A DNA stretch of 36,779 bases from NCBI GenBank assembly GCA_002774285.1, contig PEYT01000027.1, positions 1 through 36,779 on the forward strand. Direction: 5' to 3'. The translations under genes and the position numbers were made by a program. The stretch comes from a candidate division WWE3 bacterium CG08_land_8_20_14_0_20_40_13 (lineage in GTDB: Bacteria; Patescibacteriota; WWE3; 0-14-0-20-40-13). The notes beneath the pieces are model-generated. The model worked only from the letters and a program-made list of their open reading frames with translations. It had not been told where the DNA came from and made no database searches. Numbering within the stretch: the first letter of the stretch is position 1; every line of letters starts with the position of its first letter. This document shows positions 2 to 14,714 of the stretch, piece by piece.

Positions 2-1132
2 CCCCTTCAAAAATTACAAGTTGCGGGAAGAATTAGAATGGACACGTGGACTGCCGATGGGGATACCGCAGTTTACAAGAATGCTAGTGGCGATATTGGA
101 CTTACATCATCTGATGTACGCTTAAAAAAGAACCTAACCCCAATCACCAATGCACTCGCTATCGTTAAAAGCTTAAATGCCTATACATATAACACCGTAG
201 AGGAATCTGATGATGCCAAGAAGCGCTTAGGGCTTGTGGCGCAAGATTTACTGCCAATCCTTCCCGAAGCAACCTTTAAGTTTAATGTAAAAGGTTCAGA
301 CGAAGAATACTATGGTATTCACTACGAAAAGCTAACCGCAGTTTTGGCGCAAGCAATTAAGGAACAAGAAATAAAAATAGATGAGGTTACAGGAGAGGTA
401 AAAAGTATCACGGATACGCAACAGACCCCTGAAATTTCCGAAACTAGTGAGATTTTAGCCTCCCAGAGTCGTGATATGGCAACCTTCGCATCCCGTTTGG
501 ATTTAGTAGAAAGTCAATTAGGACTTTTAGGGCAGTTAGGTCCGTTGGGGATAGGAACTTCCGCGTCAAACGTGGCTGGCGCTGAACCGAGTGTTGGGGT
601 AGGTTCTTCGGCACCTTCGCTGCCAAAATTAGAAGATATTTTTGCTATAAGCGATAAGGATATCTCGGTAGACCGTGACCTTGTGGTGTATAAAAACTTT
701 AACGCCCTCGGGCTTTCTACCTTCTTGGATGTTGTTATCACTGGAAAAATCACCACCGGTCTTTTGGTTATAGACGGGCTGGGGGAAAAGGGGGCATCTC
801 TTGCCACCATGGCGGGGGATATGGTTTTGCAAAATACCGTGACAATAGACAGCAAAGGGAATGTAATGATTTTAGGCCAAGTTACCACGCAAAAAATAAA
901 TGTTAAAGGCCCGGATGTCGCGGCCGCCTCCGCTGGGAAAGTTGTAATACCTGCCGGCACTACCTCTGTCAAGGTAAGTACCACGGCAGTAACGAATATT
1001 TCCCTTATTTATGCTACACCAAATGCTCCTGTTGTAGTTGGGGCAAAATACAGTGGGGAGAAGGAATTAGAAATTATGTTAAATGCCCCTGCTTTAGAAG
1101 ATACCGAAGTAAACTGGTGGGTGGTTAACTAA
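2..1132 (+). CDS. Phage-tail/surface protein with peptidase S74 (intramolecular chaperone) domain, 5' truncated by window edge
   Basis: SSDVRLKKNLTPITNALAIVKSLNAYTYN motif typical of S74; frame stays open to base 2 (PLQKLQVAGRIRMDTW). Confidence 0.8.
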   Translation, partial: PLQKLQVAGRIRMDTWTADGDTAVYKNASGDIGLTSSDVRLKKNLTPITNALAIVKSLNAYTYNTVEESDDAKKRLGLVAQDLLPILPEATFKFNVKGSDEEYYGIHYEKLTAVLAQAIKEQEIKIDEVTGEVKSITDTQQTPEISETSEILASQSRDMATFASRLDLVESQLGLLGQLGPLGIGTSASNVAGAEPSVGVGSSAPSLPKLEDIFAISDKDISVDRDLVVYKNFNALGLSTFLDVVITGKITTGLLVIDGLGEKGASLATMAGDMVLQNTVTIDSKGNVMILGQVTTQKINVKGPDVAAASAGKVVIPAGTTSVKVSTTAVTNISLIYATPNAPVVVGAKYSGEKELEIMLNAPALEDTEVNWWVVN

Positions 1133-1137
1133 GATTT

Positions 1138-1551
1138 ATGAAATCGTATAAAGACCAAATAAAAGATACTTTCAAACAAACTAAAGAAGTATCTTGTCCT
1201 GCTTTTGGTGGCAACAAAATATATTTTAATGCCAAGGGAATTAACCACCTTTTATATAAGGGCAGTAGGAGCAGGAGGGACAACAAAAGAATAGAAACGA
1301 ATATCCGTTTGTTACCAAGGGCGATAAAGGTTTTACAAGCAATGCCGTATTTTCAGGAAGAGAGCAACTACAAAAAAGAAAATGTAAGTTACAAATTTTG
1401 GGCTTTTGAAGCGGTAATTAATGATAGACGAATTAAAGTAGTTATTAGGCAAGTAGGAAATGGGCAGAAACATTTTTGGAGTGTTATCCCTGCGTGGAGA
1501 AAAGACCGTTTTGGCATTATAAACGCTAGAAAAAAGAATCTGGAGGAATAA
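1138..1551 (+). CDS. Small protein resembling phage BECR-fold (Barnase-EndoU-ColicinE5/D-RelE-like) nucleases
   Basis: 137 aa ORF; layout FNAKGINHLLYKG..RLLPRAIKVL..KVVIRQVGNGQKHFWSVIPAWR. Confidence 0.45.
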   Translation: MKSYKDQIKDTFKQTKEVSCPAFGGNKIYFNAKGINHLLYKGSRSRRDNKRIETNIRLLPRAIKVLQAMPYFQEESNYKKENVSYKFWAFEAVINDRRIKVVIRQVGNGQKHFWSVIPAWRKDRFGIINARKKNLEE

Positions 1552-1552
1552 A

Positions 1553-1604
1553 TGCTGGCCTTCGGCTTTGGATTGGCCGAGATAAACCTTGCGGTTAACC
1601 AGCA
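1553..1604. other. Possible three-way-junction stem structure
   Basis: Outer TGCTGG/CCAGCA enclosing TCGGC..GCCGA and AACC-TTGC-GGTT hairpins. Confidence 0.35.
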
Positions 1605-1653
1605 ATAGGGATTCTTGCACGAATAATTTAATTAATCAAGAGGGAAAATCGAC

Positions 1654-2973
1654 ATGGAAAAACCGATCTACGACACATTTTGTTGTCCCTACTGCCAAAG
1701 CAAAAAATATGTGCGGCGTGGCTTTAGGCAAAAAAAGTATGAAAAAATACAACTTTATCTTTGCTTGGAATGCAAACGAACTTTTACTCCGCAAAAAGAC
1801 CTAGGAAAACATTACCCGCTGGAAACTGTTTTTAACGCGTTAAGTTTGTATAACCTAGGCCACTCCTTGGGAGGAGTTTGTAAAATATTAAATGATAGAG
1901 AGAGCGGAGAAATTAGAAATTTCTCTCTCCAACCTTCAACCGTTTCCGCATGGCTCGAGGAGTTTAAGGATTATTGCAAATACCAAAGAATGCGTGAATT
2001 TGTGATAAAAAAATACGACCCAAAAAATACTGTGGTCACCGCAACATTGGCGCACCGCCAGTTGTATCGCTACAGGTATCATCGCGCCAAGTGCTCTTTA
2101 ATGATCCAAGAGGAATACGCCCACCGAAAATTTGAGCCGCTAAAAGAATTTTTGGAACTTGTCCCCTCGGAATGTCCGCATCAGTATTTTTCAGAAGGGT
2201 TACGGGCTTCGGAAGTTCCCATAACTTTTTCCAAAAAGCAAATGATTGTTCGTAGCAAAACAAATTACGCCAATAAGCTATGCCAATTTGTTTTGCAAAG
2301 TGTCAAAGAACGGACTTCTCGGCACGAGCATGTGCAAAAATTCTTCTTATTTAACGATTCGGTAACCGTTGCCACCGAGGTTCCGGTTTATTTAACCCGT
2401 GAAGATTTGTTGCATATGCAAACCCAACTTGGGTTTCAAATTTATACCAAGAAAATTGACCTAATTAACCTAATTGACCTGATTTCTAAAGAAAACCCAA
2501 ATCCCAATGAACAAAAAGAGATAAAGTTATTGGCTCTAAAATTGGGATTTAAGGAATTGGAAATTGGAGATTATTTAGGTCGGTTAGAAATTAGCGCAAT
2601 TAGAAATTTTGCACACACTCAACTAGATGTTAAGAGTTTTGGTGAGTTACCTAAATTAATAACAGGACATATCGATCTCTTGCAAATTAGAAACGGACAA
2701 ATACATATCCTAGACTACAAACCAAACGCTGTAAAGGAACAGCCGATTGACCAGCTCACAATCTACGCAATGGCCTTGTCACGCCTTACCGGACTGCGTC
2801 TTTTTGATTTTAAGTGTGCGTGGTTTGACGAAAAAGACTATTTTGAATTTTATCCATTGCATGTTTTATATAAACCATCTAAAACAAGAAGAAGGAAAAC
2901 AGTAGCAACTACCGAAGGGAGGTATCGTATCAACCAAGAGGTAAAGAAGGTAGTTAATGTGAAACCAACATGA
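1654..2973 (+). CDS. InsA/IS1-like zinc-ribbon + HTH protein fused to C-terminal PD-(D/E)XK (Cas4/RecB-like) nuclease domain
   Basis: N-term CCPYCQSKKYVRRGF..LCLECKRTF; C-term GHIDLLQIRNGQIHILDYKP..QLTIYAMAL (D..DxK..QxxxY). Confidence 0.7.
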   Translation: MEKPIYDTFCCPYCQSKKYVRRGFRQKKYEKIQLYLCLECKRTFTPQKDLGKHYPLETVFNALSLYNLGHSLGGVCKILNDRESGEIRNFSLQPSTVSAWLEEFKDYCKYQRMREFVIKKYDPKNTVVTATLAHRQLYRYRYHRAKCSLMIQEEYAHRKFEPLKEFLELVPSECPHQYFSEGLRASEVPITFSKKQMIVRSKTNYANKLCQFVLQSVKERTSRHEHVQKFFLFNDSVTVATEVPVYLTREDLLHMQTQLGFQIYTKKIDLINLIDLISKENPNPNEQKEIKLLALKLGFKELEIGDYLGRLEISAIRNFAHTQLDVKSFGELPKLITGHIDLLQIRNGQIHILDYKPNAVKEQPIDQLTIYAMALSRLTGLRLFDFKCAWFDEKDYFEFYPLHVLYKPSKTRRRKTVATTEGRYRINQEVKKVVNVKPT

Positions 2974-3410
2974 TCAAATTTTACCCAAGAAGACCGGTTA
3001 AAAGTTTTCAGGATTTGGAAATTTACCAAAAGCTACTGGCTTGTGGCGTTGCCGTGACACGGATGGCAAAAGATTGCCAGACCACTCCGTTACTGGACGA
3101 GATTATTGTAACGCCACTTATCAAACTTTCCTTGGAATTGCCAAGTCTTATTGCCAAAGCGCACTCTTTACGATTTGCGGAATTTGCCATCGCGCAAAAA
3201 ACTTTGGAAGATACGATGCTAAATTGCAATCTGGTGGTTGTGAAGCTGGAGTTATATAGGGATCTTGTTTGTCCCAGTGCCGAAGTTGCACCTGTCTTTG
3301 ACAACCAGTCCCATTCCGAAATTGAGGAAACAATAAAAAGTTACCTCACAGTGCGCTACAAAATACTCCACTTACAAAAAAGCTGGCAAAAGTTTAAAGA
3401 AGGGGATTAG
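2970..3410 (+). CDS. Four-helix-bundle-like protein
   Basis: ATGA overlap with upstream nuclease ORF; helical 146 aa with FQDLEIYQKLLACGVAVTRMA. Confidence 0.5.
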   Translation: MIKFYPRRPVKSFQDLEIYQKLLACGVAVTRMAKDCQTTPLLDEIIVTPLIKLSLELPSLIAKAHSLRFAEFAIAQKTLEDTMLNCNLVVVKLELYRDLVCPSAEVAPVFDNQSHSEIEETIKSYLTVRYKILHLQKSWQKFKEGD

Positions 3411-3424
3411 TAGTTTTAGGAAAG

Positions 3425-3478
3425 AATTGGTTAAATTTGTCAAATTAGTTCAATTAGACAAATTTGACTAATAATTAA
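3425..3478. repeat. 9-bp-period degenerate repeat
   Basis: AATTGGTTA AATTTGTCA AATTAGTTC AATTAGACA AATTTGACT. Confidence 0.85.
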
Positions 3479-3482
3479 AACC

Positions 3483-4031
3483 ATGAGTTACGAAAACCTA
3501 TTAGTTTACAGGTTAGCCGTTACAATATATGACGCCAATGAGCAGTTTTATAAGAAATTCCTAAAAGAGTATGCTCATAAAAGGTTGGTGGAACAAATGA
3601 CCCATGCGGCAAGGTCGGGTAAACAAAACATTGTAGAAGGGGTCTTGGAAAAAAGCATGGAAAGTGGGCTAAAATTAGTTGGTGTTGGACGCGCTAGCTT
3701 TGGCGAGCTTTTGGAAGACTACAAGGACTTTATTAGAAGCCACAAATATAATCTTTGGGACAAGAACGATCCCCGGGTTGTAAAAATTCGTACCTTTAAG
3801 GAAGATACTGCTAATGTTACCAATTTAGCTAATATTGCCAGTTGGACTAATTTGGATTTAGAAAAACCGGAAGAATACGCAAACATAATGGTTTGCCTGC
3901 TTTTTAAGGAAAATTATTTATTAGATAGGTTTTACAAGTCCTTGGAGGAGCAGTTTATTAAGGAAGGGGGATTTCGCGAAAACCTATTTAAGAAACGCTT
4001 AGATTACAAAAAAACAAATTTGTCTAATTAG
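3483..4031 (+). CDS. Four helix bundle protein (23S rRNA IVS/Avd-like superfamily)
   Basis: SYENLLVYRLAVTIYDANEQF..QMTHAARSGKQNIVEG..GELLEDYKDFIR. Confidence 0.75.
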   Translation: MSYENLLVYRLAVTIYDANEQFYKKFLKEYAHKRLVEQMTHAARSGKQNIVEGVLEKSMESGLKLVGVGRASFGELLEDYKDFIRSHKYNLWDKNDPRVVKIRTFKEDTANVTNLANIASWTNLDLEKPEEYANIMVCLLFKENYLLDRFYKSLEEQFIKEGGFRENLFKKRLDYKKTNLSN

Positions 4032-4065
4032 TCCAATTGGACTAATTGGTCTAATTTGATAATAT
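4017..4065. repeat. 9-bp-period degenerate repeat
   Basis: AATTTGTCT AATTAGTCC AATTGGACT AATTGGTCT AATTTGATA. Confidence 0.85.
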
Positions 4066-4088
4066 GGTGTCAGGAAGATATAAGTTTT

Positions 4089-5339
4089 ATGTTGCAAACA
4101 AATCTTTTTACTAAAACTCGCAGGGAAGCGCCAAAAGACGAGACAAGCGTTAATGCCCAACTTCTGATTCGTGGCGGTTTTATCCACAAAGAAATGGCTG
4201 GTGTTTATAGCTTTTTGCCTTTGGGCTTTATTGTTCTTAATAAAATAATCAACATTATCCGCGAGGAAATAAACGCCATCGGAGGGCAGGAAATTTTAAT
4301 GTCGGGTCTTCAAGATCCGGCAATTTGGAAAGCTTCCGGTAGGTGGGACCAAAAAGTGGTGGACTCCTGGTTTAAGACAACCCTTGCCAATGGGGGAGAG
4401 TTGGGTTTGTCGTTTACCCACGAAGAACCCATTGCCAGAATAATGACAAATCATATCAATTCATACAAAGACCTACCTAAATATGTGTACCAATTTCAGA
4501 CAAAGTTTCGCAACGAAAAAAGATCCCAAGGGGGGTTACTTCGCACTCGGGAATTTATTATGAAAGATTTATATTCCTTTTCCGCAACCCAAGGAGAGCT
4601 TGACGAATTCTACGAAAAAGCGCGGCAAGCCTACGTAAATATCTTTAACCGGATTGGGATAGGGGATAAAACTTATTATACATTGGCAAGCGGTGGGGTG
4701 TTTTCCAGATATTCCCACGAGTTTCAGACGGTGTGCGAGGTAGGGGAGGATGAGATTTATATAAAAGAAGGAGCTCTCGAAGCGGTAAATAAGGAAATTA
4801 TGAATGATTCGGGTTTTGATTCGGGTGAAACCCTAAAGGGTTTCACCCGCATTTCGGAAAAATCCGTCGAAGTTGGAAATATCTTTAAGCTGGGCACAAA
4901 ATACTCCGAGGCGTTGGGATTAAAATATCATGACAATATCGGCAAAGAGCACCATGTCATTATGGGAAGCTATGGCATTGCGCCATCCCGTTCTATGGGG
5001 ACGGTTGTAGAATTACACCACGATGATCAGGGAATAATTTGGCCTGCTAGCATTGCCCCCTTTAAATACCATATTCTTTGCGATAACAACTCGGACGAAG
5101 CAGTTAAGCAGTCAAACGATCTGTATGCTAAGTTAGTAGCAGATGGCTCAGAATCTCTGCTAGACGATCGGCCAGAGACTTTAGCGGTAAAGATTAAGGA
5201 TGCTGATCTTATCGGCTGTCCCGTTCGGATAATAGTTTCTAAAAAATCATTGGAGGCGGGAGGGGTGGAGGTTAAAGGCCGTAAAGATTCTAATATCAAG
5301 GTGATTGCCAGTGAAAATCTTTTTAATTTAAAATTTTAA
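4089..5339 (+). CDS. proS: Prolyl-tRNA synthetase (short form)
   Basis: Class II aaRS motifs; FTHEEPIARIMTNHINSYKDLPKYVYQFQTKFRNEKR; start 4089 preferred over 4056. Confidence 0.93.
   Translation: MLQTNLFTKTRREAPKDETSVNAQLLIRGGFIHKEMAGVYSFLPLGFIVLNKIINIIREEINAIGGQEILMSGLQDPAIWKASGRWDQKVVDSWFKTTLANGGELGLSFTHEEPIARIMTNHINSYKDLPKYVYQFQTKFRNEKRSQGGLLRTREFIMKDLYSFSATQGELDEFYEKARQAYVNIFNRIGIGDKTYYTLASGGVFSRYSHEFQTVCEVGEDEIYIKEGALEAVNKEIMNDSGFDSGETLKGFTRISEKSVEVGNIFKLGTKYSEALGLKYHDNIGKEHHVIMGSYGIAPSRSMGTVVELHHDDQGIIWPASIAPFKYHILCDNNSDEAVKQSNDLYAKLVADGSESLLDDRPETLAVKIKDADLIGCPVRIIVSKKSLEAGGVEVKGRKDSNIKVIASENLFNLKF
4822..4849. repeat. Palindrome inside proS
   Basis: CGGGTGAAACCC-taaa-GGGTTTCACCCG. 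Confidence 0.92.
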
Positions 5340-5358
5340 ATTAAAAATTTTCTGCGTC

Positions 5359-5994
5359 TTACGCAGAGGTTCTCCCCTCCATTGCCCTTTTAAGAGTTGT
5401 TTCGTCAGCGTATTCCAAATCTCCGCCTGTTGGAAGGCCTCGTCCGATGCGGGAGATCCTGATTAGGGTACTACCACATTTTTCCAATTTGTTTTTAATG
5501 TACATCGCAGTAGCCTCGCCCTCTAGGTCGGGGTTGGTTGCAAGTATGATTTCTAATTTATCTAATTCATAGGGGGTAGTACCCGATAGGGTACTACCCC
5601 ATTTTTTAATACGGGAAAGTAGATCTTCTATAAAAAGCTCTTCGGGGCCAATGCCCGCAATAGGATTTATAGCGCCGTGAAGCACATGGTACAGTCCGTT
5701 GTAGCCCGATTTTTCCAAAGCCAGAACATCCAAAGGAGACTCCACCACACAAATTTTTTCTTTGTCTCTTTTAGGATCGGCGCAAACCTCGCAGATTTCA
5801 TCCTCGCCAACATTTTTACAAATTTTACAAATTTTGGTTTGTTTTAAGGCAGACACCGAGTCAGCAAAGGTGTCAAGTCGCTCCTGCGGTACTCTTAACA
5901 AATGAAAAGTTAAACGCTCTGCCGTTTTGGGTCCGATGCCGGGGAGCGATTCAAAGGAATCTTTAAGAGATTGTAATGGTTTTGGTAAATGCAT
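5359..5994 (-). CDS. recR: Recombination protein RecR
   Basis: LPGIGPKTAERLTFHLL, CxxC zinc finger, ILATNPDLEGEATAMYI, GGDLEYADETTL. Confidence 0.93.
   Translation of the reverse strand: MHLPKPLQSLKDSFESLPGIGPKTAERLTFHLLRVPQERLDTFADSVSALKQTKICKICKNVGEDEICEVCADPKRDKEKICVVESPLDVLALEKSGYNGLYHVLHGAINPIAGIGPEELFIEDLLSRIKKWGSTLSGTTPYELDKLEIILATNPDLEGEATAMYIKNKLEKCGSTLIRISRIGRGLPTGGDLEYADETTLKRAMEGRTSA
5573..5600. repeat. Palindrome inside recR
   Basis: GGGGTAGTACCC-gata-GGGTACTACCCC. Confidence 0.92.
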
Positions 5995-6002
5995 AGAAAA
6001 CA

Positions 6003-6047
6003 AATTAGTCTAATTGGACTAATTAGTTAAATTGGTCTAATTTGATA
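6003..6047. repeat. 9-bp-period degenerate repeat
   Basis: AATTAGTCT AATTGGACT AATTAGTTA AATTGGTCT AATTTGATA. Confidence 0.85.
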
Positions 6048-6063
6048 ATAGGGAGTTTAGGAC

Positions 6064-7572
6064 TTATAGGGGAGCCTTGCCGTCCAAAACTTCCCAAGCC
6101 TCCTTGATTTTATCAGGGGGAACCACTCCTTTAATCGGTTCTATATTCTTATCGCTTAAATCCTCCTTGGACGCAGGTTTTTGCTTGCTTAATGTTACCT
6201 TGATTGCTACTGCCCGGCCCAATATTTTTTCTAGGGCTGTTTCTACAATCTTTTTATTTGTTGGTGAATTTAGCCGTTCCCTGTGGAAAGAGTAAAAAGC
6301 TTCAATTACAAGTGATTCGTTGTCGTCGTCAAAGCCCAATATTTTACACGAGCGAAGTAACGCCTCAACCGAGTGGTTTAGGGGGCGGACGGCCTCGTAT
6401 AACTTTTCTATGGAAAAGGCGGGGGGATTAGGAGGAGAAGAGGGGGCAGATAAGATTGATTCGGGTTCCACCCTAAAGGGTGGAACCCGATTTAATTCTT
6501 CGGTCAAATCTACCACTGCCACCTCCAGCGGCAAAAAGGGAATAGTGGCAAACCTAATTTGTCGTCTTGCTTCTCCAAAAGATTTAATAAGTCCGGAAAT
6601 TTGTGGAAGCGTTATTACCTTTATTGGATCTATCAAAAGAGCATCGTTGCCAGCGCCAACCTTGGCAAAAAGCAGGCTTTGTAGATACTCCAAAAAGCTG
6701 TCGGTCCAGCTTTCGGCACCAATACCGGTTTCAAAAGTTTTTTCCAGATACTCAAGAGCTACTTTGGTATTGGGTTTAATGGCAATATCATAAACAAATT
6801 TTGCCAATTCGTCTGTATCGGAAAGGGCAATTAATTCGTCCACCGTGATTTGTCCAAAGACCACCTGTTCCAGCATGGTTTCGGCGTCGCGGAAACCTCC
6901 TAAAGCGGCCTTGGCGATTTTTTTTAGGCTTTCGTCAGATAGCTCCGGAACTGGTGTTTTTTCTTTTTGTTCTGCGTCTAAAATTCTTTTTAACTTTTTT
7001 ACAATGTCCAAAACGGTGGCGCGTTTAAGCTCAAATTGTTGACAACGGCTTCTTATAGTCTCCGGAACTTTTTTAAATTCGGTGGTACAAAGGACAAAAA
7101 CGGCGTGCGGTGGCGGCTCCTCCAAAGTTTTTAAAAGCGCGTTAAAAGCCTCGTTTGTCAGCATGTGAACCTCGTCAATTATATAAACCTTAAAACGGCC
7201 GGCGGCGGGGGAAAGCGCAATTTTGTCGCGGAGTGACCGGACATCGTCAATGCCGCGGTTACTGGCGGCGTCAATTTCGATAAGATCTATATACGAGCCG
7301 TTGTCTATTGCAATGCAGTGATCGCAGGTGCCACAGGGTTCAGAATTGGTCAAATTAGGCGTATTTGTTAAATTAGACAAATTTGATTTTTGACAATTGA
7401 GGGCCTTGGCGATAAGGCGGGCCATGGTTGTTTTGCCAACTCCGCGGGGACCGTATAAAAAAAAGGCGTGTGCGAAGTTTTTGGAAAAAATTGAGTTTTG
7501 GATAGCGCGCGAAAGGGTCTCGCTTCCTAAAAACTCGCCAAATTTGCGCGGACGGTACTTGGTGTAAAACAT
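6064..7572 (-). CDS. dnaX: DNA polymerase III subunit gamma/tau
   Basis: GPRGVGKTTMARLIAKALNC, CxxC zinc motif, IDEVHMLTNEAFNALLKTLEEPP. Confidence 0.95.
   Translation of the reverse strand: MFYTKYRPRKFGEFLGSETLSRAIQNSIFSKNFAHAFFLYGPRGVGKTTMARLIAKALNCQKSNLSNLTNTPNLTNSEPCGTCDHCIAIDNGSYIDLIEIDAASNRGIDDVRSLRDKIALSPAAGRFKVYIIDEVHMLTNEAFNALLKTLEEPPPHAVFVLCTTEFKKVPETIRSRCQQFELKRATVLDIVKKLKRILDAEQKEKTPVPELSDESLKKIAKAALGGFRDAETMLEQVVFGQITVDELIALSDTDELAKFVYDIAIKPNTKVALEYLEKTFETGIGAESWTDSFLEYLQSLLFAKVGAGNDALLIDPIKVITLPQISGLIKSFGEARRQIRFATIPFLPLEVAVVDLTEELNRVPPFRVEPESILSAPSSPPNPPAFSIEKLYEAVRPLNHSVEALLRSCKILGFDDDNESLVIEAFYSFHRERLNSPTNKKIVETALEKILGRAVAIKVTLSKQKPASKEDLSDKNIEPIKGVVPPDKIKEAWEVLDGKAPL
6462..6489. 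repeat. Palindrome inside dnaX
   Basis: CGGGTTCCACCC-taaa-GGGTGGAACCCG. Confidence 0.92.
7344..7388. repeat. 9-bp-period repeat in frame inside dnaX
   Basis: AATTGGTCA AATTAGGCG TATTTGTTA AATTAGACA AATTTGATT. Confidence 0.8.
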
Positions 7573-7789
7573 CGTAGGAATATTATTAGCATGCGTGGGG
7601 GTATTAGCAAGAAACAAATTATACCTTAAGATCCAAAAATTTCTAATTAATCTAATTATTCTGATTGTTCTAAAGAAACCACAAATCCCAATTTGGTGCT
7701 TGGGATATTGGACATCATTTAGATTAATTAGGTTAATTGTAATAATTTTGAAATTGCTATCTTTGATAATTTAGTATAGATTAATTGTC

Positions 7790-8170: not shown

Positions 8171-8351
8171 GAAATTATTGATTGATCTAATTAACCTAAT
8201 TATTCTAAATAAGTATCAATTTCCAAATTCCAAATTGAGAGTTGGGATTTGTTTAGGGTAATTAGAAATTAAAATTCTATTAATTCATTAAAGTTTCGAA
8301 TCCGATATAGAACTAGGCAGTTTATATGTCGAAAGGGGGTATTTTTGAATC

Positions 8352-9997: not shown

Positions 9998-11443
9998 ATG
10001 TCCAACACTCTTTTCTTTTACAACTCTCTCTCCCGCAAAAAAGAAACCTTTATTCCCATTGATCCTAAAGAGATCCGTGTTTACACCTGCGGTCCTACCG
10101 TTTATAACTTTGCCCATATCGGGAATCTGCGGACTTATATTTTTAACGATTTGCTCCAAAGAACGCTTATTTTTTTGGGATACAATGTAAAACGGGTAAT
10201 GAATATAACCGATGTGGGGCATCTTTCCGGCGATGGGGATATGGGAATGGACAAGGTAGAAAAAGCCGCTAGTGAAAAAGGAATGAATGCGTGGCAGTTA
10301 TCCGACTATTATCTTGAAGCATTTAAGAAAGATATGGAACGGCTTAATATGTTATCGCCAACTATTTGGGAAAAGGCCACCGCAACTATTAAAGAGCAAA
10401 TCAACCTAATTAGCCAAATAGAACAAAAAGGATTTACTTATAAAACAAGCGATGGGATCTACTTTGACACAAGCAAGTTTCCAGAATATGGCGCGATGTC
10501 GTCACTCACAAATGACGGGATAAAAGAGGCGGCGCGGGTGGATTTTAATGCCGAACGGAAAAATCCCCGCGACTTTGCTTTGTGGAAATTTAACACAACG
10601 GGTAAAAAACGGGCTATGGAATGGGACTCACCTTGGGGGATAGGGTTTCCGGGTTGGCACACTGAGTGTTCGGCGATTTCTCTAAAACATCTTGGAAATC
10701 CTTTTGATATTCATACTGGAGCAATTGACCACAAAGAAACTCATCACCCGAATGAAATTGCTCAAACTGAGGTGGCAACAGGGAAAAAGATGGCAAATTT
10801 TTGGTTGCACGCGGGATTTCTAAATGCGGAGAGCGATCAGAAAATGGCAAAATCCAAGGGGAATTTTTTAACGCTTCAAAGTGTTATAGACCGTGGTATT
10901 AACCCCTTGGCTTACCGCCTATACACATACGGAATGCATTGGCGGCAGACCGCGGCTTTTTCTTGGGAGGCCTTGGGTGGTGCCACACGAGCCTTTGGTA
11001 GGTTGCAGGTTTTTGTCCAAGAGAATTTGCCAAATTCGACCAATTTGCCAAATTACGATGATCGGGGCAGTGCCCCCGCAGGGGCACTGCCCCAATTCAA
11101 GGAAAGATTTTTGCAAGCGTTATCCGACGATCTAAACATGCCGCAAGCTATGGCCGTTGTTTGGGATTTAGTAAACACATCTAAAAAAGGTAACTTTCAA
11201 GCAGAGGCTGTTAAACTGCTTTTAGACTTTGATCGTGTTCTTGCATTAGGATTTAGTCAAATTATACCAATTGGACAAATTCCCGAGAACATTAGCAAAT
11301 TAATTGCCGAAAGAGAGCAGGCAAGGGCTAGTAAAAACTACGCCCTTGCCGACAAACTTCGCGACCAAATCCAAAAACTTGGCCACACCGTCGTTGACAA
11401 ACAGCCCATAGTTTGGTACAATAGACAGGCATTGCTGGTTTAG
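9998..11443 (+). CDS. cysS: Cysteinyl-tRNA synthetase
   Basis: YTCGPTVYNFAHIGNLRTYIFNDLL..GWHTECSAIS..KMAKSKGNF. Confidence 0.95.
   Translation: MSNTLFFYNSLSRKKETFIPIDPKEIRVYTCGPTVYNFAHIGNLRTYIFNDLLQRTLIFLGYNVKRVMNITDVGHLSGDGDMGMDKVEKAASEKGMNAWQLSDYYLEAFKKDMERLNMLSPTIWEKATATIKEQINLISQIEQKGFTYKTSDGIYFDTSKFPEYGAMSSLTNDGIKEAARVDFNAERKNPRDFALWKFNTTGKKRAMEWDSPWGIGFPGWHTECSAISLKHLGNPFDIHTGAIDHKETHHPNEIAQTEVATGKKMANFWLHAGFLNAESDQKMAKSKGNFLTLQSVIDRGINPLAYRLYTYGMHWRQTAAFSWEALGGATRAFGRLQVFVQENLPNSTNLPNYDDRGSAPAGALPQFKERFLQALSDDLNMPQAMAVVWDLVNTSKKGNFQAEAVKLLLDFDRVLALGFSQIIPIGQIPENISKLIAEREQARASKNYALADKLRDQIQKLGHTVVDKQPIVWYNRQALLV
11064..11093. repeat. Palindrome inside cysS
   Basis: GGGGCAGTGCCCC-cgca-GGGGCACTGCCCC. 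Confidence 0.92.
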
Positions 11444-11537
11444 CGTTGCGTTTTGATACGGCTTGGAGAGAAGGGCAGGTCTCTTCAAGCTATATCTTTG
11501 CGCAACTCCCGTTCCTAAAAACTAGCAAGTATACTCA

Positions 11538-11566
11538 TTGACAGATAATATACAATTATGTATATT
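11538..11566 (+). promoter_or_regulatory. Sigma70-type promoter with overlapping 8-bp inverted-repeat operator
   Basis: TTGACA-17 nt-TATATT; AATATACA-atta-TGTATATT inverted repeat at 11547-11566. Confidence 0.7.
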
Positions 11567-11574
11567 TGTTGTGT

Positions 11575-12114
11575 ATGACATTTGAAAGTCTCCAAAGAGC
11601 AATTAAGTTACCTGTATTTACGACCTCCGATGTCGGATTGGCCTTTCCTCTGGAATCTTCCCAGTCCGTAAACATCTCTCTTTATAGGCTTGCCAAGTCG
11701 CAAAAAATAGAGAATATCAAAAGGGGGGTATATAAGTTTATTGGCGCAAAGGTTGATGAGTTTTCCTTGGCCCGTATTTTGTACACGCCTTCCTATGTAA
11801 GCATGGGGAGCGTTTTAAATTCGTGCGGAGTTATTCCCGATGTTCCTCTTTCCGTAACCTCCGTAACAACTACCACATCAAAGAAGATTTCAACTCATGT
11901 AGGAGTATTTTTTTACTCAAAGCTCCCCCGAAAACTCTATTTTGGTTTTGAGAACGGGGTTGCCCTTCCCGAGAAAGCCCTTTTGGATTATCTTTACATT
12001 CGAAGGATACGAAACTTGGAAAATTATAGAATAGACATATCTCATCTTGATAAAACAAAAATAAAGGAATTTGCTAAATATTATCCGGCATGGTTGCAAA
12101 AAGTATTAAAATGA
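11575..12114 (+). CDS. AbiEi-type antitoxin/transcriptional regulator
   Basis: N-term winged-helix layout; SLARILYTPSYVSMGSVLNSCGVIPDVP; 4-bp overlap with AbiEii-like gene. Confidence 0.8.
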   Translation: MTFESLQRAIKLPVFTTSDVGLAFPLESSQSVNISLYRLAKSQKIENIKRGVYKFIGAKVDEFSLARILYTPSYVSMGSVLNSCGVIPDVPLSVTSVTTTTSKKISTHVGVFFYSKLPRKLYFGFENGVALPEKALLDYLYIRRIRNLENYRIDISHLDKTKIKEFAKYYPAWLQKVLK

Positions 12115-12908: not shown

Positions 12909-13194
12909 ATACCCTTATTGCTTCCACTTTGTTAAATCGCGTTTGACCAAGTCAAACTTGGCTTATCGCGCGACGGAAGTGGAAGAATTTGCTACCCCAC
13001 CCCAAAAAATCACTTTTTTACTTATCATGATAAAATTCCCTTGTGAACAAAATACCCAAAAAATTTTGAGGGTTGGATGAAAAAAGTAGACGGAGAAGAA
13101 TTTCCCCTCTCTTCCTTTGGGGAGAGGTCGTGGCTAGCGCCAATTTGCATGAGCGCACTTTTTATTTGTTGTATTTGTCAAGCCCGATAGAATT

Positions 13195-14483: not shown

Positions 14484-14536
14484 GTGGTGAAGATGGAGAT
14501 TCGAAGGGATCAAACCCAACGAGCCGTCTTCGCCAC
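14484..14536 (+). other. Structured 3' element (13-bp stem with two G-U wobbles plus inner hairpin)
   Basis: GTGGTGAAGATGG / CCGTCTTCGCCAC enclosing GGGATCAAACCC; starts 7 nt after a stop codon. Confidence 0.45.
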
Positions 14537-14714
14537 CTCTCACAAGCTAATTAGAAGTAATTGGTTTATGAGGGAACCTTAATGTTGTTAGTCGGTATCT
14601 AAAAGTACAATTACAATGTATTTCTAGCTACCGATTAGCCCTTTCGCCAACTGGCGAATTGCAAACAGAGAGCTACACGGGGTGTAGCAAGCAAGATCGG
14701 AAAGGAGCATTTCC

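Follow-up and report, generated by a model that had tools for sequence, protein, structure and literature searches.

A nuclease and helix-bundle gene pair between split intein halves: a candidate homing module in giant surface-protein genes of Patescibacteria

The start of contig PEYT01000027.1 (GCA_002774285.1), from candidate division WWE3 bacterium CG08_land_8_20_14_0_20_40_13 (genome G000, 92% complete), raises the question of what a nuclease with a transposase-like N-terminus is doing beside a four-helix-bundle protein whose gene overlaps its own. We refer to the whole stretch analyzed, 36,779 nt, as the window, to the nuclease as NUC and to its neighbor as FHB1; other loci and genomes carry L and G numbers. 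In relatives of this locus, NUC and FHB1 lie between the two halves of an intein interrupting a giant Peptidase_S74 gene, a context that is not visible from the window sequence alone. We give about an even chance to the reading that the pair is a free-standing mobilization (homing) module of such split inteins in Patescibacteria. The features of the window that this argument needs are the following.

2–1132, + strand: S74 open reading frame (ORF), 3′ part of a Peptidase_S74 (endosialidase-chaperone) giant surface-protein gene (PF13884, 2.3e-13)
1654–2973, + strand: NUC, 439 aa, zinc ribbon, helix-turn-helix (HTH) and RecB/Cas4-type PD-(D/E)XK nuclease (profiles, alignment, structure model)
1684–1788, + strand: IS1/InsA-type zinc ribbon of NUC (C11, C14, C37, C40), residues 11–45 (NF050000, 1.8e-6)
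2674–2766, + strand: predicted catalytic signature of NUC, D341, D354-Y-K356 and Q367-L-T-I-Y371 (42-homologue alignment)
2970–3410, + strand: FHB1, four-helix-bundle protein, obligate partner of NUC (AlphaFold2 fold; co-occurrence)

Scanning about 85,000 species genomes for NUC, we obtained 46 loci, nearly all of them from Patescibacteria. NUC and FHB1 recur together in about 40 loci, FHB1 following NUC in almost all cases and often overlapping it; in the window, the overlap is the ATGA at 2970–2973. Our sample of relatives comprised 57 related genomes, 8 NUC-positive and 49 NUC-negative, and a strong FHB1 was present in 8/8 of the former and 0/49 of the latter (p 6e-10). The two genes form an obligate pair and usually overlap. 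A first-pass annotation of this DNA had named the recurrence of the nuclease with a helix-bundle gene as a check on its proposal, and these loci provide it.

Where do these pairs lie? Using family-specific local hidden Markov models (HMMs), we found both intein halves around NUC-FHB1 at L018, L019, L020, L021, L025, L026, L044 and L058, and a single half beside the pair, before the contig ends, at L024, L028, L041, L046 and L051. At the eight split loci the N-half ends the upstream S74 ORF, the C-half opens the downstream ORF, and NUC lies between them. The Pfam model Intein_splicing (PF14890) matches the end of the upstream S74 ORF over profile positions 10–74 or 18–71 (L019, 1.3e-5; L058, 2e-6), under the curated cut-off though at positions that complement those of the C side; where the downstream ORF begins, it matches positions 76–155 or 112–155, above the cut-off (L026, 5.4e-10; L051, 2.2e-12; L019, 9.7e-10). 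At L019, the ORF before NUC closes with an intein N-terminus (CVTGDTLLPIRRRR..TTAKHPYL) and the ORF after FHB1 opens with an intein C-terminus (..VWDIEVEGTHNFVGNGIIAHN↓T, the arrow marking the junction). The splicing residues C1, T84 and H87 (TxxH block B) and H77-N78↓T79 (HN↓T junction) are invariant in the aligned halves, and the C-halves of L018, L021, L029 and L046 have an extra insert ahead of the HN end. The insertion point is alike in most loci (..GTTxPxxKLHVxGx↓C..HN↓T(Y/F)). Spacing is tight: the gap from the intein-N ORF to NUC is 8–16 nt in L020, L021, L025 and L026, and FHB1 overlaps the C-half ORF in L019, L025 and L026. At L044, a single open reading frame spans S74, the intein N-half and NUC; FHB1 and then the C-half ORF come after it. 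Intein-associated NUCs are spread over several deep branches of the NUC tree. The relatives of the window module thus have the split-intein, or fractured-gene, arrangement: two halves, the splicing residues and a nuclease gene between.

Among the relatives, the intein family occurs in 6/8 NUC-positive and 0/49 NUC-negative genomes (p 8e-7), and across 380 genomes of the phylum in 6/13 and 3/367, respectively (p 3e-8), p-values that overstate independence because the genomes are related. NUC-positive genomes in which NUC lies outside a split intein often have continuous inteins of the same family, at the same site, in other giant ORFs (four at L082, two at L083 and one at L084). Homing-endonuclease domains usually sit between the N and C blocks of an intein. 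NUC-FHB1 occupies the spot where the continuous inteins of this family hold nested domains, and in three cases we found an NYN domain nested between the blocks (L082, 7.8e-19; L083, 1.7e-20; the NUC-free L104, 2.4e-19). The inteins of L083, L084 and L104 have this NYN (PIN-like) domain at the usual homing-endonuclease position; our literature search found no paper combining intein and NYN terms. L082 475–7335 is a single ORF of 2287 residues in which repeats of the same motif hold four continuous inteins in tandem; the first carries NYN and the other three carry unidentified domains, the fourth possibly DUF3800-like by eye.

Two further observations concern intein pieces elsewhere. At L106 (G210), a surface-protein gene at 2–5510 is split over three successive ORFs; intein pieces mark the breaks, and there is no NUC in the vicinity. 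The large terminase of Acinetobacter phage ME3 (KU935715.1, 9632–9805) is weakly similar to the intein N-half (38%, 8e-4), and this region is probably an unannotated intein, judging by that resemblance.

One could argue that NUC-FHB1 is itself cargo, a toxin-antitoxin- or defense-like pair lodged in an insertion-tolerant nested-domain site, while the intein spreads otherwise or not at all. NYN, AbiEii-type, LPD3, DUF4143 and PF05635 genes also occupy that intein spot, continuous inteins of the family hold nested NYN domains, PemK/MazF genes accompany NUC at intein-free loci, and NUC weakly matches a Cas4-like nuclease in PADLOC (4e-5). However, NUC and FHB1 are constant while the other genes differ from locus to locus, FHB1 is obligate, and NUC, which resembles a targeted DNA enzyme, is fused at L044 to the intein N-half. 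We regard the cargo explanation as unlikely. PADLOC detected no defense system and gave no match, weak or otherwise, for the other proteins of the locus, so we rejected a known anti-phage defense system; beyond the Cas4-like match, the defense role suggested by the first-pass annotation found no support.

The genes that do behave as cargo in the window are two.

1138–1551, + strand: LPD3-like cargo ORF, optional (PF18798 at the gathering cut-off)
3483–4031, + strand: FHB2, PF05635-like four-helix bundle with a TIGR04258 suffix, optional cargo (TIGR04258, 1.7e-15; TIGR02436, 1.5e-4)

All four ORFs that the first-pass annotation had joined into one module (1138–1551, 1654–2973, 2970–3410 and 3483–4031, all on the + strand in the first 4 kb of the window) were confirmed, and so was its description of FHB2 as a four-helix bundle. 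The four-gene unit did not hold, since only NUC and FHB1 are constant among loci: FHB2 recurs in just 4 other loci, and LPD3 homologues occur at just 2, L028 (between the intein N-half and NUC) and L059. FHB2 and LPD3 are variable passengers of NUC-FHB1, and NYN, PemK/MazF, AbiEii-type and DUF4143 genes are other variable neighbors of NUC. The label 'BECR-like' given to 1138–1551 is partly supported; Pfam assigns the ORF to LPD3, exactly at the cut-off, and it may be a BECR-type nuclease or toxin. The gene order of the window is S74 end, LPD3, NUC, FHB1, FHB2 and then an aminoacyl-tRNA synthetase gene, and similar orders are found in L022, L023 and L055, the last with an S74 C-terminal fragment after FHB1.

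Large S74 ORFs adjoin NUC in many loci, which brings in a second explanation: a resident recombination or gene-conversion module that cuts S74 genes to reshuffle their repeats, with the intein as one safe place among others. S74 also flanks NUC where no intein is present (the window, L023, L030, L034, L037, L039, L043, L050, L055 and L056), L019 and L055 have S74 3′ ends, duplicated or in fragments, downstream of cargo or of NUC-FHB1, and in L021 (4833–6375 and 11196–12672) the two S74-type ORFs that enclose NUC-FHB1 share blocks of 561–717 nt with 90–93% identity. These shared blocks hint at recent conversion or duplication. On the other hand, NUC is tied more closely to the intein family than to S74 genes, which are present in 6/8 NUC-positive and 19/49 NUC-negative relatives (p 0.12), and this explanation would still have to account for the fusion at L044 and for the precise placement of the pair between intein halves. 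We consider it unlikely.

Two of the loci contain local repeats of S74 or intein sequence. In L019, copies of the S74 3′ end follow two DUF4143-type ATPase genes, one after each (11437–11590, 12951–13104 and 14507–14561), in a manner that looks like an integration scar or a gene-capture duplication. In L058, part of the intein N-half recurs comparably, as an exact repeat of 60 nt.

NF050000 (the IS1/IS1595 zinc domain) matches NUC over its cut-off at residues 11–45, and the IS1 transposase model NF033558 matches residues 11–80 at 2e-5, under its cut-off (24.6 vs 100 bits); this IS1 match is confined to the N-terminal 70 residues, and no transposase catalytic domain was found in NUC. PDDEXK_1 (PF12705) matches residues 307–380 (4.7e-6, 27.2 bits vs a gathering score of 22), as well as 41/42 homologues. 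Across the 42 homologues, one of them chloroflexotal, D341, D354 and K356 are invariant, while Q367, Y371 and the zinc-ribbon cysteines C11, C14, C37 and C40 are at least 90% conserved. Given that its catalytic residues are invariant or at least 90% conserved, the nuclease core looks intact. The fusion of a zinc ribbon and HTH to a PD-(D/E)XK nuclease that the first-pass annotation had read in this ORF is thus borne out, together with the profile match to PD-(D/E)XK that it had set as a check. The AlphaFold2 model of NUC has a predicted local distance difference test (pLDDT) score of 85, and its closest PDB folds are the AddAB, Cas4, RecB and MGME1 nucleases, all weak (E > 0.001); comparing its sequence profile with PDB gave no real relative. 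The zinc ribbon and HTH, the operon-like place beside S74 and the conservation of the chromosomal site in some lineages would also suit a protein that binds DNA to regulate the S74 operon and no longer acts as a nuclease, yet the catalytic D, DxK and QxxxY are kept throughout the homologues, the chloroflexotal one included, and we find this very improbable.

Regarding FHB1, its AlphaFold2 model is a four-helix bundle (pLDDT 90.5) whose top PDB fold match is 2gsc (Xcc0516, TMt 0.83), with the S23-family 2rld ranked below and weak E-values (at least 6e-3); here too, the sequence profile found no real relative in PDB. Sub-threshold matches to PF05635 were seen in 9/39 family members (best E 1.3e-5), the FHB1 of the window having none. 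The family is mostly basic (median isoelectric point 9.4), and FHB1 carries an extended basic N-terminal motif (PKRPVKSFQDLEVYQ). The first-pass annotation had likened the helix-bundle proteins to Avd, and they might accordingly belong to a diversity-generating retroelement with the S74 gene as its target, an idea favored by the common S23/Avd-like fold class, the surface-protein context and a 154-nt repeat pair in L019 in which 8/8 mismatches are at positions with A on one side. But which copy of that pair has the A varies with the position, and the differences are mostly G/A transitions; the genome of the window has no reverse transcriptase; and reverse transcriptases, present in 1/8 NUC-positive and 14/49 NUC-negative relatives, show no enrichment with NUC. 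No adenine-specific pair of template and variable repeats was found in the first 9 kb of the window, and FHB1 members match the 23S rRNA intervening-sequence protein (IVP) model and no Avd model. We therefore rejected the retroelement, to which we give next to no credence, and the Avd link with it. What stands of the first-pass proposal is its broader part, a DNA-binding nuclease with a helix-bundle scaffold, perhaps as a mobile-element system, which is close to our best explanation.

Beyond the nesting, the L044 fusion and the co-occurrence, which we observed, the cutting, homing and splicing that we infer would proceed as follows. The zinc ribbon and HTH of NUC, perhaps helped by FHB1, would recognize the repeated extein-coding motif (..GTTxPxxKLHVxG↓T..), and the RecB/Cas4-type core would cut or process an intein-free copy. 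Repair off the intein-bearing copy would install the intein with NUC, FHB1 and cargo, and protein trans-splicing would rejoin the halves, so that the giant surface protein would still be made.

By analogy, the nearest known counterpart in its way of working would be the 'fractured genes' (Dassa et al. 2009, Nucleic Acids Res 37:2560, doi 10.1093/nar/gkp095; cited in PMC3229294 and PMC7090010), which are reportedly split inteins whose halves enclose a free-standing homing endonuclease gene. Both have an intein N-half, a stop, a nuclease gene of the broad PD-(D/E)XK class and an intein C-half. Fractured genes are reportedly phage and GOS housekeeping genes with a Vsr-like EDxHD nuclease, whereas the loci described here involve giant surface proteins of Patescibacteria, a zinc ribbon/HTH-RecB/Cas4-type nuclease, an obligate four-helix partner and variable cargo. 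With RecB, AddB, Cas4 and MGME1, NUC shares PF12705, the G-x-x-D, DYK and QxxxY motifs and the fold matches, weak as these are, but it has an N-terminal transposase-like zinc ribbon and HTH and no helicase or Cas partner. Its residues 11–80 are like the N-terminus (InsA zinc ribbon and HTH) of IS1/IS1595 transposases, with PD-(D/E)XK in place of the transposase catalytic domain. FHB1 has the fold of the 23S rRNA IVP/S23 proteins (PF05635; 2rld, 2gsc), a namesake family also encoded in intervening sequences, and differs from them in its basic N-terminal extension and its tie to NUC, the window copy also lacking a PF05635 match. Finally, rRNA introns of the candidate phyla radiation encode LAGLIDADG homing endonucleases (PMC11270868); these too are selfish intervening elements with nucleases in Patescibacteria, but they combine RNA introns with LAGLIDADG, while the NUC loci combine inteins with PD-(D/E)XK.

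Several results weigh against a homing module. About two thirds of the NUC loci have no intein nearby, though many contigs end close, and genomes G321, G357 and G210 carry continuous inteins without NUC. The nearest structures of NUC are not classical site-specific homing enzymes, and at some loci the gene neighborhood is conserved (rplJ/rplL in WWE3), in keeping with prolonged vertical residence. We found no near-identical allele pair with and without the intein. An empty-site search with the exact motif LHVxGxT[YF] gave only two chance-like matches; with a looser motif, the intein is present in 16/173 GTT-repeat units, and a few of the uninterrupted ones look like empty sites (for example L088, ..LTIAGDTYLDG..). 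The window is the last point: no intein half was detected in it or elsewhere in its genome. Its locus lacks the split-intein arrangement, with no halves flanking NUC. The S74 ORF at 2–1132, directly upstream of 1138–1551 and overlooked by the first-pass annotation, is the sole S74 match across the genome and has a natural C-terminus (..VNWWVVN), but its 5′ side is cut off by the contig start. Hence, either the window is a relocated or derived copy, or its intein is in the stretch of the S74 gene that is missing from the assembly.

As to movement between genomes, L019, from a genome of the same class as the window, clusters in the NUC tree with a Vogelbacteria sequence (support 100/98), which suggests some horizontal movement, with the usual caution about the binning of metagenome-assembled genomes. 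A tblastn search with NUC against phages (50,697 records) and plasmids (72,556 records) gave no match, and we found no full relative in IMG/VR and no PHROG family; a phage or plasmid origin was rejected on these grounds. L089 (G012 C7) has an uninterrupted S74 ORF of about 8,840 residues beside rplJ/rplL, in the same neighborhood as the S74 loci of L025, L026 and L056 (rplJ also in L019), and is a possible intein-free counterpart.

The remaining features of the window are a repeat and the part of NUC that contains it.

2452–2646, + strand: hypervariable linker of NUC, residues 267–331 (alignments; repeats D3, D6, D13, I17; pattern scan)
2452–2612, 3423–3476, 4006–4068, 5997–6056, 7342–7386, 7637–7694 and 8172–8229: 9-nt-period repeat (pattern scan)

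This AT-rich repeat (CTAATTNGNCTAATT-like) has 22 matches in the window against an expectation of 0.13, and the first 10 kb contain nearly all of them. It lies between genes and also in frame within NUC (IDLINLIDLI) and a DnaX-like ORF (NLSNLTNTPNLTN), the copy in the NUC linker having been overlooked by the first-pass annotation, and it is reminiscent of palindromic elements that lie in frame within genes, as in Rickettsia. The linker (about residues 267–331, just before the GHID motif) is hypervariable in all homologues, with flanks 50–70% identical, and seems to carry lineage-specific inserts in many genomes. The RNA-family search of the window matched tRNA and no other family.

Tentatively, we propose that Patescibacteria harbor mobile split inteins of a class not reported before, dedicated to giant surface proteins for host interaction, in which a two-protein machine, a transposase-type zinc ribbon/HTH-RecB/Cas4-type nuclease and an S23-fold helix bundle, is encoded between the halves and can carry cargo genes; the surface protein would be made only after trans-splicing. 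In the openly licensed literature that we searched, we found no report of inteins in surface proteins of Patescibacteria. If the proposal is true, a new nuclease architecture with a dedicated partner would join the few known routes of intein spread, and natural split inteins, when new, are useful as protein-ligation tools. The S23/IVP helix-bundle fold, widespread and long without a function, would gain a concrete setting, inside intervening sequences and beside a nuclease. And an episymbiotic bacterial radiation would be shown to assemble its giant proteins, which probably contact the host, via protein trans-splicing.

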